Assembly: GCA_903878085.1 (NCBI GenBank)
Contig: CAIRGJ010000035.1
Location: 37,429-101,428 of the forward strand
Direction of reading: 5' to 3'
DNA: 64,000 nucleotides
Origin: an uncultured Hyphomicrobiales bacterium
Lineage (GTDB): Bacteria; Pseudomonadota; Alphaproteobacteria; Rhizobiales; Xanthobacteraceae
Shown: one piece after another, positions 2,875-50,393 of the stretch
How the letters are laid out: the number at the start of each line of letters is the position of its first letter
How positions within the stretch are numbered: the first letter of the stretch is position 1
Translations under genes and position numbers: made by a program
The notes under the pieces: model-generated
The model's database searches: none
Told to the model about the DNA's origin: nothing
What the model saw: the letters and a program-made list of their open reading frames with translations, nothing else

Positions 2875-3483
2875 TTACTGGTTGCCCCAATCGAGCTTGA
2901 CGATCTCAGCCGAACGGCCGGTCAGATTCCAGTTGCGGCCGAAGCCGCGGAAGCGCGACTTGTCGGCGCGCGACACGATGACGTCCGGGCCGATCCAGTA
3001 TTCGCTGTTGCGGATGACGACGTTGCCCTCGCCTTTGCCGCGCACCGGCGTGATGGCGCCGTCGACATATTTCTCGATGCGGATGATGCGGGTCTCACCT
3101 TGGGTTTCGTAAGAGATCGGCACCTGGCGCACGCCGAGAAACTGGCCGACCAGGATCGACAGCAGATGCGTGGTGCCGCCGACGCGGCCGGTGAAAATGC
3201 GGGTAAGACCCTTCACCGCCATCGCCGAAGCCTTGTCGTCGACGAACAAAGCCGCGGTCCAGTTGCCGCGCGACATGATGCCGGGCAGATCCATCATCAG
3301 GCCGACTTTGAGGCCGGATAGATCTTCGCTGTCGATATGGCCGTCGTCGATGCGGATGCCGGCCCAGGTCTGGCAGCGGTCTTCGGTCGGCGGATGATCG
3401 CCGAGCGACAGCACGCAGGGGCAGAACACCGTGCAGCTGCACGACAGCGTCATTTCGCCTTTCAACGTCCAAGCTTCAACCAA
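2875..3483 (-). CDS. DUF1326 domain-containing protein
   Basis: A 202-residue soluble protein. The N-terminus is rich in closely spaced cysteines (CSCTVFCPCVLS at about residues 15-26), the diagnostic segment of DUF1326, and the family fold continues through the length. The function is not established. The Cys cluster suggests metal or heme handling, which is inference only. It lies 33 bp downstream of a DUF2182 membrane protein; these two families are often neighbours, so the pair probably works together. It ends exactly where pcs begins. The ATG at 3483 has the weak upstream sequence GGAGGATGCG. Confidence 0.85.
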   Translation of the reverse strand: MVEAWTLKGEMTLSCSCTVFCPCVLSLGDHPPTEDRCQTWAGIRIDDGHIDSEDLSGLKVGLMMDLPGIMSRGNWTAALFVDDKASAMAVKGLTRIFTGRVGGTTHLLSILVGQFLGVRQVPISYETQGETRIIRIEKYVDGAITPVRGKGEGNVVIRNSEYWIGPDVIVSRADKSRFRGFGRNWNLTGRSAEIVKLDWGNQ

Positions 3484-3516: not shown

Positions 3517-4371
3517 TTAAATCGCGTGCCCCGGCCAATGGGCGGCGACCGACAGACCGACAAGGGCGACGCCGGTGCCGATCAGGGCGACGCCGAGGGC
3601 ATAAGTGAACCATTTACCGATGCCGATTTTTTCCATCGTCATGACGATGCCGAGCCCCGCCATCCAGACCACGTTCATGACGCCGACGGCAAACATCACC
3701 AGCATCATCGCCCAGCAGCAGCCGAGACAGAACAGCCCCTGGCGCAGGCCAAGCTTGAACACGCCGCGCGGCGTCGTCGACCAATTGGCGAAAAAAAACG
3801 GAAACGGATGCTGGCATTGCGTGAGGCAAGCATGCTTGAGCGCCGAGAATTGATAGACACCGGCGGCGATAAAGATCGCGCCGGAGAACAGTCCGCTTGC
3901 CGAAGCCATGCTGGGATCGAGCAGCGCGGCGCGCGTCAGCGCGAGCTGCGCCAAGGTCGCGGCGGCAGCAAAGCCGAACCACACCACGATATAACCGGCG
4001 GCGATCATGAACGGCGACACCACCGGCTCATCTTTACGTGCGGCGGTGTCGGCGATCTCGGCGTAGGTCAGGATCATCGGCGCGGCGCTCGGCAGCATCA
4101 TGGCCAGCGTCATGGCGCCCCACATTCCCGCCACCAGGGCGATGCCGGACGCGCTTGTGCTGCCGCCAACCATGGCGCTGCACAGCGCGTCGAACATGCT
4201 CATGTTGGCCGCCTGCAGGCCGAGCGTAAACCAACCGAGGCCCGCCAGCGCGATCACGCAGACCACGGCGATCACCTTTGGCCGCGCAAAAGCCGCGCCC
4301 AGCCGGCTGGCGGCGGGCGAAAGACGGTCAAGTTTGGGGCCGGCGGCCTCGGTCATTTCAACATGCTGCAT
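3517..4371 (-). CDS. DUF2182 domain-containing integral membrane protein
   Basis: About 284 residues with six or so membrane helices. The family signature WGAMTLAMMLPSAAP, rich in Met, is present, as are ACLTQCQHPFPFF and CLGCCWAMMLVMFAVG. The frame stays open far upstream through the antisense of the neighbouring hydroxylase, but residues before MQHVEMTEAAG have no membrane or family character, so the ATG at 4371 is used; 4356 is an alternative. Met- and Cys-rich helices hint at copper or another soft metal, but this is inference. It is paired with the DUF1326 gene directly downstream and divergent from the UbiH-like gene. Confidence 0.85.
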   Translation of the reverse strand: MQHVEMTEAAGPKLDRLSPAASRLGAAFARPKVIAVVCVIALAGLGWFTLGLQAANMSMFDALCSAMVGGSTSASGIALVAGMWGAMTLAMMLPSAAPMILTYAEIADTAARKDEPVVSPFMIAAGYIVVWFGFAAAATLAQLALTRAALLDPSMASASGLFSGAIFIAAGVYQFSALKHACLTQCQHPFPFFFANWSTTPRGVFKLGLRQGLFCLGCCWAMMLVMFAVGVMNVVWMAGLGIVMTMEKIGIGKWFTYALGVALIGTGVALVGLSVAAHWPGHAI

Positions 4372-21400: not shown

Positions 21401-21938
21401 CGCCGCGTACGGCGTAGTCGCCCGGCTCGCGCACGGTTGAGGCGCGCTGGAATCCATTGAGTTCGAGCCACTGCACGACGCCAGCCATGCCGAGCACATT
21501 GCCCGGCGCGACCGACAGCGCATGCGTCGCGACGAATTCGCGCGCCGGCACCCGCTGCAAGGCGGCGTTGACCGTCGTCAAAAGCACCGACGGCTTGTCG
21601 CGGCCTTTGACGCGCGCCAGCCGCGACAGCGCCGTCATGCGTTGCGCCACCACCGACGCGTTCGGCGACACGCGGTCATAGGGCAGACAATCCCAGGCCG
21701 GGAATTCCATGGTCGTGAGGTCGGGCCCGAAGAACGCCAGGGCACGCGACAGCGCCGCCATGCGCTGGCCGTCACGACAGATCACGCATAGCGAAATCGC
21801 CGGCGCATGCGGCCGGGCCGCGACGCTGCGCGCCAGATCGGCCAGCACCATGCCCTCGGCGCCGTCGGCGACCTGCGACAGCGTCAGCGCCTTACCGGGT
21901 TTCAAAAATTCAGCGGGAGATTTCGCCTTTACACTCAC
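18408..21938 (-). CDS. mfd: Transcription-repair coupling factor Mfd
   Basis: 1,176 residues, the usual Mfd size. In order: a UvrB-homology N-terminus (FPAWDCLPYDRVSPN, RGGILDLFPPG), the RNA-polymerase-interaction domain with DLVVHVDHGIGRFVGL, then a RecG-like SF2 translocase with Walker A GDVGFGKTEVALRA, DEEQHFG (DEEQ box), LSATPIPRTLQLA and QLRGRVGRS, and a TRCF C-terminal domain. It binds RNA polymerase stalled at lesions, removes it and recruits UvrA. ATG 21938 overlaps the TGA of upstream sdhE by four bases, so the two are coupled. uvrA itself is at the right end of the window. Confidence 0.98.
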   Translation of the reverse strand: MSVKAKSPAEFLKPGKALTLSQVADGAEGMVLADLARSVAARPHAPAISLCVICRDGQRMAALSRALAFFGPDLTTMEFPAWDCLPYDRVSPNASVVAQRMTALSRLARVKGRDKPSVLLTTVNAALQRVPAREFVATHALSVAPGNVLGMAGVVQWLELNGFQRASTVREPGDYAVRGGILDLFPPGMDMPVRFDFFGDSLETIRTFDPQTQRSEMTMRGLDLVPVAEFQLITDTIRRFRTGYVAEFGATTPDDLLYEAVSEGRRYPGMEHWLALFHDTLDTIFDYLPGTPLALEHLDQDAAHERFTQITDYYETRKTALSEGMTPSYKPLKPDRLYLTEAEWKERLGASAMAKLTPFSVPEERDVIDVGAHAGHNFTAERAAPNANVFEAVSKHVFGLQESGKRVAIALWSEGARERMGHVLADHKLHNLSPVGSWAQALALPKHTVGLAVLGIESGFETGEVAVISEQDILGDRLVRPRRAQKRADNFIAEATSLAAGDLVVHVDHGIGRFVGLQAITAAGAPHDCLEIHYAEGAKLFLPVENVDLLSRYGAEQSTVELDRLGGGNWQARKARMKSRIREIASELIKIAAERLLRDAPKLSIGPGAYDEFCAGFPYEETEDQLAAIDATLKDLGAGKPMDRLICGDVGFGKTEVALRATFATAINGKQVAVVVPTTLLARQHFKTFTERFRGFPVNVVQASRLVPNAQLNQVKSDLADGRADIVVGTHAILGKGIKFKDLGLVVVDEEQHFGVAHKEKLKTLRAEVHVLTLSATPIPRTLQLALTGVRDLSIIASPPVDRLAVRTFVSPFDPVTVREALLREKYRGGQSFYVAPRIEDLAGAKDFLDKNVPEVRVCVAHGQMPPTVLDDIMSAFYDGKYDVLLSTTIIESGLDIPTANTLIVHRADMFGLSQLYQLRGRVGRSKLRAYALFTLPAQKPITPQAERRLKVLQSLDTLGAGFQIATHDLDIRGAGNLLGDEQSGHIKEVGFELYQQMLEEAVLSLKAGITTQVADHWSPQITIGTPVLIPEDYVADLSVRLALYRRLAEIEDEREIDSFAAEMADRFGKLPLEVEHLLQIVTIKALCRRANVEKLDAGPKGVVLAFRDNIFNNPEGLIAYIREQGSEARMRADPKDAKNQQLVFFDDWERPEERLKGTAAIVRKLASIAERAKAA

Positions 21939-37062: not shown

Positions 37063-37107
37063 GGGCGCGTAGCTCAGTTGGTAGAGCACCTGACTTTTAA
37101 TCAGGTG
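37063..37107 (+). pseudogene. tRNA-Lys(UUU) 5' fragment (left half of the split gene, attL)
   Basis: Forty-five bases identical to the first 45 positions of the reconstructed tRNA: acceptor strand GGGCGCG, D-arm GCTC-AGTTGGTA-GAGC, complete anticodon arm CCTGA-CTTTTAA-TCAGG with an uninterrupted TTT anticodon, and the first two variable-loop bases. After position 37107 the sequence departs to unrelated A+T-rich DNA, so no T-arm or 3' acceptor follows. Its last 14 bases (37094-37107) are repeated at 38851-38864. It can still be transcribed but cannot fold as a tRNA. Confidence 0.93.
37094..37107 (+). repeat. Left 14-bp core repeat (attL core), CTTTTAATCAGGTG
   Basis: Identical to 38851-38864. 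It covers the anticodon loop, 3' anticodon stem and start of the variable loop of the tRNA, a usual crossover region for tyrosine recombinases in tRNA genes. Confidence 0.88.
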
Positions 37108-37161: not shown

Positions 37162-37181
37162 TGGGGCCAGTATGGGGCCAG
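37162..37181 (+). repeat. Paired TGGGGCCAG direct repeats (left arm-type sites)
   Basis: TGGGGCCAG at 37162-37170 and again at 37173-37181, an 11-bp period, about one helical turn. A matching pair in the same orientation lies at 38737-38756. Spacing and placement suit integrase arm-binding sites; this is inference. Confidence 0.6.
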
Positions 37182-37375: not shown

Positions 37376-37666
37376 GGGCGCGTAGCTCAGTTGGTAGAGC
37401 ACCTGACTTTTATTGGAGCCATCGGAGGGGAAACCACCGATGGGATGGTGTCAAATTCGGGGAACTCGTCCGCGTAACGGCGACGACAATCCCGAGCCAA
37501 GCCCAGCGATGGGAAGGTGTAGAGACTTGACGGCACCCACCTAAAGCCAAACTGGCCACGGTGAAGAGAAAGTCCAGACTGCAAACTCTTAGAACTAAGA
37601 GGCGGCGAAAGCCGTAGCGGTAAGTTAATCAGGTGGTCCCGGGTTCGAGTCCCGGCGCGCTCACCA
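37376..37666 (+). tRNA. tRNA-Lys(UUU) interrupted by a group I intron
   Basis: Exon 1 is 37376-37409 (34 nt, ends at U34) and exon 2 is 37625-37666 (42 nt, ends in CCA). Joined they give a 76-nt tRNA with acceptor stem GGGCGCG/CGCGCTC (one G-U pair), D-stem GCTC/GAGC, anticodon stem CCTGA/TCAGG, loop CTTTTAA with anticodon TTT, T-arm CCGGG-TTCGAGT-CCCGG, discriminator A and encoded CCA. It is identical to the tRNA rebuilt from the split halves at 37063 and 38851. The intron separates anticodon bases 34 and 35, the position used by cyanobacterial tRNA-Leu(UAA) introns. If no other UUU-lysine tRNA exists in the genome, growth depends on splicing of this transcript. Confidence 0.93.
37410..37624 (+). 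ncRNA. Group I intron (subgroup IC3-like), 215 nt, in tRNA-Lys
   Basis: P1: exon CUU pairs with intron GAG (37416-37418), U-G at the splice site. P2: CCATCGG (37419-37425) with CCGATGG (37437-37443). P3: GGTG-TC (37447-37452) with GA...CACC (37529-37537). P4: TCGGG (37457-37461) with CCCGA (37491-37495). P5: CGTC/GACG (37467-37470, 37482-37485). P7, the guanosine site: GACTT (37524-37528) with AAGTC (37570-37574). P8: CACC/GGTG and GCC/GGC (37538-37563). P9: ACTGC/GCGGT plus a 7-bp hairpin at 37586-37601 and a CGGC-GAAA-GCCG tetraloop hairpin at 37603-37614. The last base is G, as required. The order of conserved blocks (AATCCCGAGCCAAGCC; GTAGAGACTTGACGG; AGAGAAAGTCCAGAC) matches the Anabaena tRNA-Leu intron. 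It has no ORF and resembles the small Azoarcus tRNA-Ile intron in size. Confidence 0.93.
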
Positions 37667-37709
37667 TTCCCCGCCCAGCCGGGCCCAGCTCTAATCTCGG
37701 TAAGAACTG

Positions 37710-38669
37710 GTGTTAAAACTCGACGAAGAACCCGACCTTGTCGAACTTCACACAGGCAATGTGAAGGAAAGCTTGCACCTTGAATACAAGGCTTCCGACG
37801 CGATTGATAAACGCGACGACAAAAAGAAGCTTGAGATGGCGCGTGACATCTCGGCATTTGCCAACGCGGATGGCGGCCAGATCGTGTACGGCATGACCGA
37901 AAAGGATCATGAGCCTGCCGGGTTAGACGCTGGCCTCGATCCAAAAGAATATCCAGAAATCTGGTTTGAACAAGTTCTCCAGCAACACGTCACTCCATTG
38001 CTTGAGGGAGTTCGCCCGCGTCACGTTAAGCTCAAGTCAGGCCGCGTCGCCGTCGTAGTCGATGTACCCGCAAGCAAGAGCGACCCGCATCAGGCCGACG
38101 GCCGATATTATCGCCGACACAATTTTAATCGGCTTGCGATGGAGCATTACGAAGTCCGGGACATGTTTCGTCGCACGACGACGCCCGAACTCAAGGTTTC
38201 GTTGTCATTCGAGCACGGCAGAAAAACTCAGATCGAATTTCCGCACCAATCGGAGCTTTCCAACGCTATCATTCTCAATGTGACAATCGAGAATGTCTCA
38301 GTGCAGCCTGCATTCCACGTCTTTACGGAAGTTTGGGTAGACGAAGGCCTAAATCCTGCGTTTGCATTGCCTAAGTTCACCCACGTGAGACTTGACCCTG
38401 GCCCTCCGAAACTGCGCGTTTATCGGAACGTTTTAACGTCACCGCCTGATCCCCCTATTTTTCGCGAGGGAGATGCGGCAAAACATCTTGGCCAAATAGC
38501 CTTTAATGTCCCTGCCCGCTTCCTCTCCGGCGAGACACTTTTCGATTTAAAAACAATCGTGCAAACACCAGGCTTTGCAAAAACAGAGCATTGGGCGATG
38601 CGCACACGCGCAGGGTGGATTGAAATCCATGGCCCCGGCGGCCCATGGACCGCTCATATTAGATCGTGA
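37710..38669 (+). CDS. AlbA_2 (Schlafen AlbA_2 / divergent AAA-4) domain protein carried by the element
   Basis: 319 residues from the GTG at 37710 (Shine-Dalgarno poor; start uncertain). The first 150 residues are an AlbA_2 domain: ESLHLEYKAS, then ARDISAFANADGGQIVYGMTE, and the closing HQADGRYYRRHNFNRLAMEHYEV. The remaining 170 residues (about 155-319) are a beta-rich region of unknown family, with SLSFEHGRKTQIEF and NAIILNVTIENVSVQPAFHVF. AlbA_2 domains occur in nucleic-acid-associated and Schlafen-like proteins and in some phage-defence genes. It is the only protein gene of the element and has lower GC and more A/T-ending codons than its neighbours. Function here: defence, regulation or element maintenance, all unproven. 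Confidence 0.8.
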   Translation: MLKLDEEPDLVELHTGNVKESLHLEYKASDAIDKRDDKKKLEMARDISAFANADGGQIVYGMTEKDHEPAGLDAGLDPKEYPEIWFEQVLQQHVTPLLEGVRPRHVKLKSGRVAVVVDVPASKSDPHQADGRYYRRHNFNRLAMEHYEVRDMFRRTTTPELKVSLSFEHGRKTQIEFPHQSELSNAIILNVTIENVSVQPAFHVFTEVWVDEGLNPAFALPKFTHVRLDPGPPKLRVYRNVLTSPPDPPIFREGDAAKHLGQIAFNVPARFLSGETLFDLKTIVQTPGFAKTEHWAMRTRAGWIEIHGPGGPWTAHIRS

Positions 38670-38736: not shown

Positions 38737-38756
38737 TGGGGCCAGCATGGGGCCAC
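38737..38756 (+). repeat. Paired TGGGGCCAG-type direct repeats (right arm-type sites)
   Basis: TGGGGCCAG at 38737-38745 and TGGGGCCAC at 38748-38756, again with 11-bp period and in the same orientation as the left pair. It lies 95 bp inside the right core. Confidence 0.6.
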
Positions 38757-38850: not shown

Positions 38851-38864
38851 CTTTTAATCAGGTG
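38851..38864 (+). repeat. Right 14-bp core repeat (attR core)
   Basis: Identical to 37094-37107. The base before it is C rather than A, so identity on the element side ends exactly here. Confidence 0.88.
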
Positions 38865-38895
38865 GTCCCGGGTTCGAGTCCCGGCGCGCTCACCA
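38851..38895 (+). pseudogene. tRNA-Lys(UUU) 3' fragment (right half of the split gene, attR)
   Basis: Forty-five bases matching tRNA positions 32-76: loop CTTTTAA, 3' anticodon strand TCAGG, variable loop TGGTC, T-arm CCGGG-TTCGAGT-CCCGG, acceptor strand CGCGCTC, A and CCA. There is no 5' half before it: the upstream sequence GCGTGCGC is unrelated to the anticodon stem. Together with 37063-37107, overlapping by 14 bases, it rebuilds the whole tRNA. Confidence 0.93.
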
Positions 38896-38989: not shown

Positions 38990-39478
38990 ATGCCGATCGA
39001 CTGGTTGGTATGGCTTCGCGCGGCCGGATCGGCCGCAGTCAACGCTAAGTCAATCTATGATCGCGTTAGAGGAAAATCGCCACGCATAAACTTTGAAGCT
39101 GGCGACAGCGGCGTCGAGCTTCGTATCCACAACCCGCGGGACGAGACCGTCATCGTCGAGAAAATCGACGCGTGGCCGACGGTTCTCGGCTTCACAGCGG
39201 GTGAGGAGTTGGTGGACGTTGTGCGCGCCGTTGTCGCCCAGCGTCAGATTCCAGCCGAACATGCGTTGGCGGTATTAAAACCACAACAGGACGCGTCGGT
39301 CGGTGTAATAACCTTTGATCCGTTTAACGACTCCGCGGCGGAAACGATTATCAAGGTGCGTTTGGACTGGCGGAGCGCAACGCGCGGCATGCTTTCAAAA
39401 GGCAGCGTTACTCGAAAGGTAAGCGTCGCGATATTCGTGACCTGCGACGTGCAGCCGAAAGGAACCAACCAAGGATGA
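38990..39478 (+). CDS. Hypothetical protein next to the element
   Basis: 162 residues, no family recognised. A short N-terminal stretch (IDWLVWLRAAGSAAVNAKSIYDRV) could be a membrane-associated helix. The rest looks like a beta-sandwich (INFEAGDSGVELRIHNPRDETVIVEKIDAW ... VGVITFDPFNDSAAETIIKVRLDW, read in parts). The ATG follows GCGGAGAAGGGTTCTAA. It lies outside the excisable unit, 94 bp after the right tRNA half, but also has lower GC than the core chromosome. It may be cargo of an older, larger insertion at the same tRNA. Confidence 0.6.
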   Translation: MPIDWLVWLRAAGSAAVNAKSIYDRVRGKSPRINFEAGDSGVELRIHNPRDETVIVEKIDAWPTVLGFTAGEELVDVVRAVVAQRQIPAEHALAVLKPQQDASVGVITFDPFNDSAAETIIKVRLDWRSATRGMLSKGSVTRKVSVAIFVTCDVQPKGTNQG

Positions 39479-49937: not shown

Positions 49938-50393
49938 TTACGCCCCCATCGTCGCCTTGACGATCTTGTCGGGGTTCTTGACTGGCTCGCCGCGCTTGAT
50001 CTTGTCGACGTTGTCCATGCCTTCGATGACGTTGCCCCAGGCGGTGTACTGGCCGTTGAGGAAACCCGCGTCGTCGAAGCAGATGAAGAACTGGCTGTCG
50101 CCGGAATCAGGGCTCGCGGCGCGCGCCATCGACACGGTGCCGCGCACGTGCGGCTCCTTGTTGAACTCCGCTTTGAGCTTCTTGCCCGAGCCGCCGGTGC
50201 CGGTGCCCTGCGGACAGCCGGTCTGCGCCATGAAGCCGTCGATGACGCGGTGGAACACGATGCCATCGTAGAAGCCTTCCTTGACCAGTTCCTTGATGCG
50301 CGCGACATGGCCGGGCGCCAGATCCGGCCGCATGGCGATCACGACGTTGCCTTGGGTGGTCTCTAGAGTGAGTGTGTCTTCGGGTTTTGCCAT
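49938..50393 (-). CDS. Cytoplasmic peptidyl-prolyl cis-trans isomerase (cyclophilin)
   Basis: 151 residues, no signal peptide. Cyclophilin motifs: FHRVIDGFMAQTGCPQGTGTGG with the catalytic Arg, ARAASPDSGDSQFFICFDD, and LNGQYTAWGNVIEGMDNVDKIK, all in order. It speeds Xaa-Pro isomerisation during folding. The gene lies 29 bp upstream of queA and 31 bp downstream of the secreted paralogue, one likely operon. Confidence 0.94.
   Translation of the reverse strand: MAKPEDTLTLETTQGNVVIAMRPDLAPGHVARIKELVKEGFYDGIVFHRVIDGFMAQTGCPQGTGTGGSGKKLKAEFNKEPHVRGTVSMARAASPDSGDSQFFICFDDAGFLNGQYTAWGNVIEGMDNVDKIKRGEPVKNPDKIVKATMGA

Follow-up and report, generated by a model that had tools for sequence, protein, structure and literature searches.

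The arrangement described here is closest to tRNA-dependent lysogeny, in which, according to Guerrero-Bustamante and Hatfull (2024; PMC10865867), phages break the tRNA-Lys-TTT gene, a main target, through a core of about 10 bp, and the resulting prophages persist by carrying a tRNA of the same kind. Our locus likewise points to integration in a tRNA gene via a short core and without rebuilding, but it differs from the cases presented in that account in two respects: the putative rescue tRNA has a group I intron in the attachment core, and the design is also found in two elements with relaxase or integrase genes, which are not phages as far as seen. The excerpts of that paper considered here contain the word "intron" solely in a reference title, and also contain the speculation that tandem integration may target the plasmid's own tRNA gene. 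Islander-type tRNA islands, as presented in excerpts of PMC4383910, are similar in that a displaced gene fragment marks one end; in contrast to them, neither end of the present segment rebuilds the gene, and a separate whole copy lies inside.

A role of introns in this context has been proposed by Randau and Soll (as cited in the part of PMC4390854 considered), namely that tRNA introns protect genes against site-specific integration. Their proposal, in the cited form, concerns archaeal and eukaryotic host genes, with introns spliced by proteins, whereas here a group I intron would lie on the gene of the element. What is likely to be new is the intron in the attachment core of a rescue gene, tRNA-dependent integration itself being already known. 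Two so far separate subjects, tRNA-dependent integration and bacterial tRNA introns, are thus brought together, and the old proposal of tRNA introns guarding against integration would gain a bacterial case open to experiment.

A broken tRNA-Lys gene and an intron-bearing copy

The window, by which we mean the whole stretch of 64,000 nucleotides that was analysed, belongs to a draft genome of 64 contigs, with an estimated completeness of 99.3%. The features of the segment of interest are as follows.

37063..37107, + strand: 5' half (positions 1-45) of the original intronless tRNA-Lys(UUU), putative attL side; 100% identity over 45 nt to the intact gene of genome G009
37094..37107, + strand: left copy of the 14-bp core CTTTTAATCAGGTG
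37162..37180, + strand: arm-like tandem repeat TGGGGCCAG TA TGGGGCCA, 54 bases past the left core
37376..37409, + strand: 5' exon of the intron-bearing (candidate rescue) tRNA-Lys(UUU), ending at U34 (ARAGORN)
37410..37624, + strand: group I intron of 215 nt, last base G at 37624 (RF00028, 51.2 bits; covariation)
37447-37452/37532-37537 and 37524-37528/37570-37574, + strand: intron pairings P3 and P7, respectively
37625..37666, + strand: 3' exon of the candidate rescue tRNA-Lys(UUU), CCA encoded
37710..38669, + strand: ORF of 319 aa with a Schlafen AlbA_2 domain (PF04326, E 1.6e-14), a passenger gene
38737..38755, + strand: arm-like tandem repeat TGGGGCCAG CA TGGGGCCA, 95 bases ahead of the right core
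38851..38864, + strand: right copy of the 14-bp core
38851..38895, + strand: displaced 3' half (positions 32-76) of the original tRNA-Lys(UUU), putative attR side; 100% identity over 45 nt

A first-pass annotation of the window had reported a tRNA-Lys(UUU) at 37376-37666, broken after U34 by 215 nt, and these coordinates hold. With introns allowed, ARAGORN reads a tRNA-Lys(ttt) with a 215-nt intron at the locus; without introns, it finds no tRNA in the window. The two exons, joined without the intron, fold as tRNA-Lys(ttt), the same anticodon type as the broken target, and the exon-core-exon pattern occurs once in the window and in none of 100 shuffles. A promoter scan found no promoter.

The same annotation had seen the intron but missed the two broken copies of the same tRNA which flank the intron-bearing one, and it is these halves that change the meaning of the find. 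They overlap by the 14-bp core, located in the anticodon arm; CTTTTAATCAGGTG is found twice in the window and nowhere else there. When the core is counted once, 5' half and 3' half together reproduce the intact gene of G009, a congener, letter for letter. The target gene is rebuilt at neither end, as halves 1-45 and 32-76 are found and neither end corresponds to a whole tRNA. Upstream of the 5' half the sequence matches the host flank, and the 268 bases between this half and the intron copy contain no ORF of at least 80 aa.

Both cores are accompanied by an arm-like repeat. Left and right repeats share 18 of 19 bases (E 4e-5) in one orientation, and their place and repetition suggest that both are integrase arm sites. 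The exact motif TGGGGCCAGNATGGGGCCA is found twice in the genome under study and in none of the 247 other genomes of the family; allowing one mismatch adds 2 hits in the 248 genomes, both inside long ORFs. Used as a tag in these 248 genomes, the motif led to no complete version of the element.

Of 29 congener loci retrieved with the adjoining amidohydrolase gene, 28 show an intronless tRNA-Lys(TTT) next to it, and in the 29th the contig stops within the gene. The genome under study yields 42 tRNA matches, 40 of which were typed by ARAGORN, the remaining two being the 5' half in the window and a fragment at a contig end. No second intact tRNA-Lys(UUU) was found among these matches in the 64-contig draft. 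Since the only other lysine tRNA typed is a tRNA-Lys(CTT), the intron copy seems, judging from the sequence, to be the sole reader of AAA codons within the draft.

We regard it as probable, at roughly three chances in four (0.74), that an integrative element broke the host tRNA-Lys gene, that the intron-bearing tRNA-Lys(UUU) serves as its rescue gene, and that the intron would shield this rescue gene. Recombination of the element would have taken place within the anticodon arm of the host gene, presumably by means of a tyrosine integrase, and its integration would have left the broken halves at 37063-37107 and 38851-38895. The intron-bearing tRNA-Lys(UUU), having presumably arrived with the element, intron included, would replace the broken host gene. 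The group I intron is predicted to leave the RNA by self-splicing; in the DNA it would interrupt the core of the attachment site, and a rescue gene with its core so divided would be no target for the element's integrase.

A plain tandem duplication of tRNA-Lys, followed by decay of two copies and acquisition of the intron by homing, would also account for the identical exons. We consider this very improbable and rejected it: the halves are complementary rather than randomly truncated, their break points lie in the anticodon arm and overlap by 14 bp, and both ends bear arm-like repeats.

No integrase was recognised within the 1757-bp segment, either in the ORF list or by Pfam analysis of 37710-38669 and 37387-37944, and for this reason the segment is likely to be a remnant. 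The integrase may have been lost from a single element, or else the middle may have been lost between two elements; the interpretation of the intron copy as a rescue gene is kept in both cases. The second course is possible, if somewhat less than even in our judgement: an older element, with a tRNA 3' half and the AlbA_2 gene, would have been followed by a second one with the intron tRNA, whose middle, integrase included, would have been lost between the two 42-nt 3' halves. Besides accounting for the absent integrase, such a sequence of events is suggested by a stretch resembling the start of the AlbA_2 ORF behind the intact G009 tRNA, on a contig which ends 464 bases past the tRNA, as if a decayed copy lay there. 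However, the G009 arrangement could also have arisen through loss of the DNA between the 11-bp repeats TTAATCAGGTG, and a single element having both arm repeats is the simpler account.

The AlbA_2 protein has relatives in 15 plasmid records, with 37% identity at best, and none was found in phages. An ORF of 162 aa at 38990-39478, to the right of the displaced 3' half, has no Pfam match and was not found beside tRNA-Lys in congener loci. A tRNA-Lys 3' half starting from the anticodon core is also present in another genome (G022:C33:96-143, L149), about 115 bases behind a tRNA-Pro, with a normal tRNA-Lys elsewhere.

Fold, hosts and kinship of the intron

By its sequence, the insert is a group I intron located after U34 of tRNA-Lys(UUU). 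Position 34/35 is the usual place of bacterial tRNA group I introns. A cmscan search gives an RF00028 match at 37399-37602, scoring 51.2 bits where the gathering score is 50 (E 4.4e-10). The fold was evaluated on an alignment of 38 introns, chosen from those found and inserted in tRNA-Lys (26), tRNA-Leu (11) and tRNA-Thr (1). Overall, 90.9% of the cells pair, against 74.9% in shuffles; pairing falls to 32.9-45.6% when partners are slid by 1-3 columns, a control in which the window structure is favoured, as the counted structure was drawn on the window sequence. Changes on both sides are found in 45 of the 61 pairs. P3 and P7 are paired in 100% of the cells, with both-side changes in 4 of the 6 P3 pairs and 1 of the 5 P7 pairs, while P2 is paired in only 64.8% and P5 in 71.5%. 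All 38 rows retain the U-G pair at the 5' splice site, and the window intron has its terminal G at 37624.

These results agree with the P1-P9 fold of the first-pass annotation, including P7 and the terminal G, and both cmscan and the alignment bear out the order of conserved blocks, which had been likened to that of tRNA-Leu(UAA) introns. The guide ahead of P1 varies with the 3' exon: in 24 of the 26 rows from tRNA-Lys, GA before GAG faces the UU of that exon, and T-rich letters face the AA of Leu. The window has TG at the guide position, and a simple P10 can be drawn with one U-U mismatch. Bacterial tRNA group I introns of the cyanobacterial tRNA-Leu(UAA) type (RF00028) thus share with the window intron the 34/35 site, the P1-P9 fold, the P3 and P7 pairings and the terminal G; the difference lies in the host, here a tRNA-Lys(UUU) placed between the halves of the original gene.

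The idea that tRNA-Lys is a host seen only in the window had to be abandoned. One pattern search returned 50 genome contigs, 43 of which carry the intron in tRNA-Lys(UUU) and 7 in tRNA-Leu (scripted typing gave 44 tRNA-Lys contigs, one of which, L015, was assigned to tRNA-Leu by eye). The 43 contigs comprise 41 from Actinomycetota and 2 labelled Alphaproteobacteria. The same search returned 16 viral contigs, 14 of them with tRNA-Lys(UUU). A literature search indicated that group I introns in tRNA-Lys are hardly described in print. The excerpt of PMC5733544 considered claims one in a cyanobacterial tRNA-Lys(CTT), which, at 49 nt, is far too short for a group I intron.

Within the order, group I intron matches (RF00028) are present in 42 of 397 genomes, and the Lys intron pattern in only one of the 397, that of the window. 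Seven of 100 relatives have an RF00028 match, four of the seven being congeners with tRNA-Leu introns, and the search found a tRNA-Lys intron in none of 42 congeners.

In a tree of the introns, which has weak support at 18 of its 35 inner branches and several long rows in the window's clade, the window intron groups with introns in a tRNA-Lys of a contig labelled Alphaproteobacteria (L052), a tRNA-Leu(CAA) (L002) and a tRNA-Thr(UGU) (L170), with support 97/89, and tRNA-Leu(UAA) introns fall outside this clade. A transfer from a Leu to a Lys anticodon, as suggested by the first-pass annotation, cannot be told from this tree. No gene halves were found near L002 (34 kb), L170 (42 kb), L052 and L011. 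Among members of the clade, the tRNA-Leu(CAA) intron belongs to genome G088 and the tRNA-Thr(UGU) intron to a plasmid of Tritonibacter mobilis. Viral tRNA-Lys(UUU) introns form, for 10 of the 11 rows in the tree, a separate clade, apart from that of the phage Daredevil.

Similar arrangements in other genomes and in phage Daredevil

The same design was found in two other genomes of the genus. In G008, a broken tRNA-Leu(UAA) 5' half (C74:20067-20107) is followed by an integrase gene, by an intron-bearing tRNA-Leu(UAA) at 21461 and, at 49949, by the 3' half. The element is 29852 bp long (span G008:C74:20067-50005, L324-L326), and its cargo includes a coupling protein, a relaxase, Wadjet JetA and JetD and AbiEi domains; its integrase scores above the cut-off for PF13102 and below it for PF00589. 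G029 features the same layout over 29356 bp, with an integrase 63% identical to that of G008, to which no Pfam family could be matched on its own. For both genomes the joined halves read as tRNA-Leu(taa). The 3'-part pattern of the intronless tRNA-Leu(UAA) in G008, as well as ACTTAAAATC in G029, has one match in the whole genome, which is the 3' half; since this match is the sole one, the intron copies seem, on this pattern evidence, to be the only copies of tRNA-Leu(UAA) in the two genomes.

An artefact of assembly, which a draft of 64 contigs might invite, was rejected as extremely improbable, more so even than the tandem duplication, because G008 and G029, which were assembled separately, show the same architecture, as does the finished genome of phage Daredevil.

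A total of 34 intron loci were examined in or near the order, 27 of them new from the RF00028 search of the 397 genomes and 7 known from earlier. A relative of the four query integrases lies within the locus in four cases (G008, G029, G220 and G108), and none is found within about 1.5 kb at the other 30. G220 and G108, from two other families of the order, carry an intron tRNA-Leu and integrases 72% and 69% identical to that of G008, respectively, with a tRNA-Leu 5' half, or a stretch resembling one, ahead of the integrase; no 3' half was found before the contigs end. Relatives of the G008 integrase were detected at 2 viral loci and in 25 plasmid records, and in no phages. Eight of these loci (the 2 viral ones and 6 from the plasmid records) show no tRNA or intron signature in the stretch fetched. 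In the Bradyrhizobium ISRA443 plasmid, an integrase remnant lies just ahead of an intron tRNA-Leu.

Two further loci may be mentioned here. Nesterenkonia alba (L036) carries two displaced tRNA-Lys 3' halves, at 3047-3091 and 3961-4000, behind an intron tRNA-Lys; they start in the anticodon loop, and repeated CCGACGTC motifs are present. In G011 (L007), an intron tRNA-Leu lies directly behind a gene which, by eye, looks like the one preceding the broken tRNA-Leu half in G029 (L004); this tRNA is perhaps a rescue gene left after loss of an element.

The Gordonia phage Daredevil is listed, in the portion of PMC10865867 considered, as not rebuilding the gene, lacking a tRNA and forming clear plaques. 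Its 930 bases ahead of the integrase gene (NC_048021.1, 41768-42697) have no feature in the public record. We found there an attachment-like core, GGACTTTTAATCCGC, preceded at 92 bases and followed at 47 bases by arm-like tandem repeats (95 and 54 in the window) and, 176-180 bases further, an unannotated intron-bearing tRNA-Lys(UUU) (L173, L194). Once spliced, this tRNA is read as tRNA-Lys(ttt) by ARAGORN, with an unusual T loop, ATCGAAA. It may not work, since the phage is published as devoid of a tRNA and with clear plaques. Three loci with relatives of the Daredevil integrase were found in viral contigs, one being Daredevil itself. tRNA finders run without introns overlook rescue genes of this kind: in this mode ARAGORN missed the one in the window, and the published survey lists Daredevil as having no tRNA.

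The intron and the attachment core

With the intron in place, the attachment site and the rescue DNA agree over at most 11 consecutive bases in the window, 9 in Daredevil, 6 in G008 and 8 in G029. With the intron removed, these values become 14, 16, 10 and 10, respectively, and in the three integrated cases (window, G008 and G029) they equal those of the host gene. For phage Whirlwind, with its intronless rescue tRNA-Lys, the sequence common to this gene and the region on the integrase side amounts to just 9 bases. We infer that a rescue gene must not resemble its target, and that a self-splicing intron would let the DNA differ while the RNA stays the same.

The cutting of the core may also be incidental, because 34/35 is the usual site of such introns. 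The intron would then be a passenger with no protective part, on a rescue gene which is nonetheless real, intron alleles being common and simply picked up. We hold this to be rather unlikely. The ordinary insertion site, the presence of group I intron matches in 42 of 397 genomes from the order and the 30 of 34 checked loci with no related integrase nearby speak for it; against it, the rescue gene would match the core in full without its intron in all four measured cases, which are different elements and involve two tRNA species. Because the integrase-bearing elements were detected by way of their introns, the frequency of intronless rescue genes cannot be read from their number.

A junction of 14 nt was found elsewhere at 4 of 155 loci, and at none in the control; the four are the window, Daredevil twice and L216, the last rejected as an A-rich chance match. 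At 12 nt the screen gives 13 loci against 10 in the control, and at 10 nt 92 against 82. In Microbacterium, the intron is found in 18 of 217 genomes and gene scars in 1 of 217, so that this test of a population effect had no power.

A wider role can be proposed only as a speculation which we ourselves find doubtful: bacterial tRNA group I introns might be attachment-site shields, protecting the spare genes of elements against their own and rivals' integrases, and the spare might outlast the decayed element as the only gene. If this were true, decay of elements leaving an intron-bearing spare would account for the scattered tRNA introns of bacterial chromosomes.

Introns of this group are also met in other settings. 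According to ARAGORN, tRNA-Thr(GGT) genes carry group I introns in six genomes, all from a single genus of the order (L346, L348, L352, L356, L358 and L359); we know of no report of this tRNA as a host of group I introns. In the plasmid collection, 1265 of 1394 records match a 681-base query at 60-80% identity. Among the matches listed (20 rows), all fall on the intron part, many of them in plasmids of Escherichia, Klebsiella and Salmonella, and in the one plasmid examined (L172) the intron lies beside tRNA-Leu(UAA).
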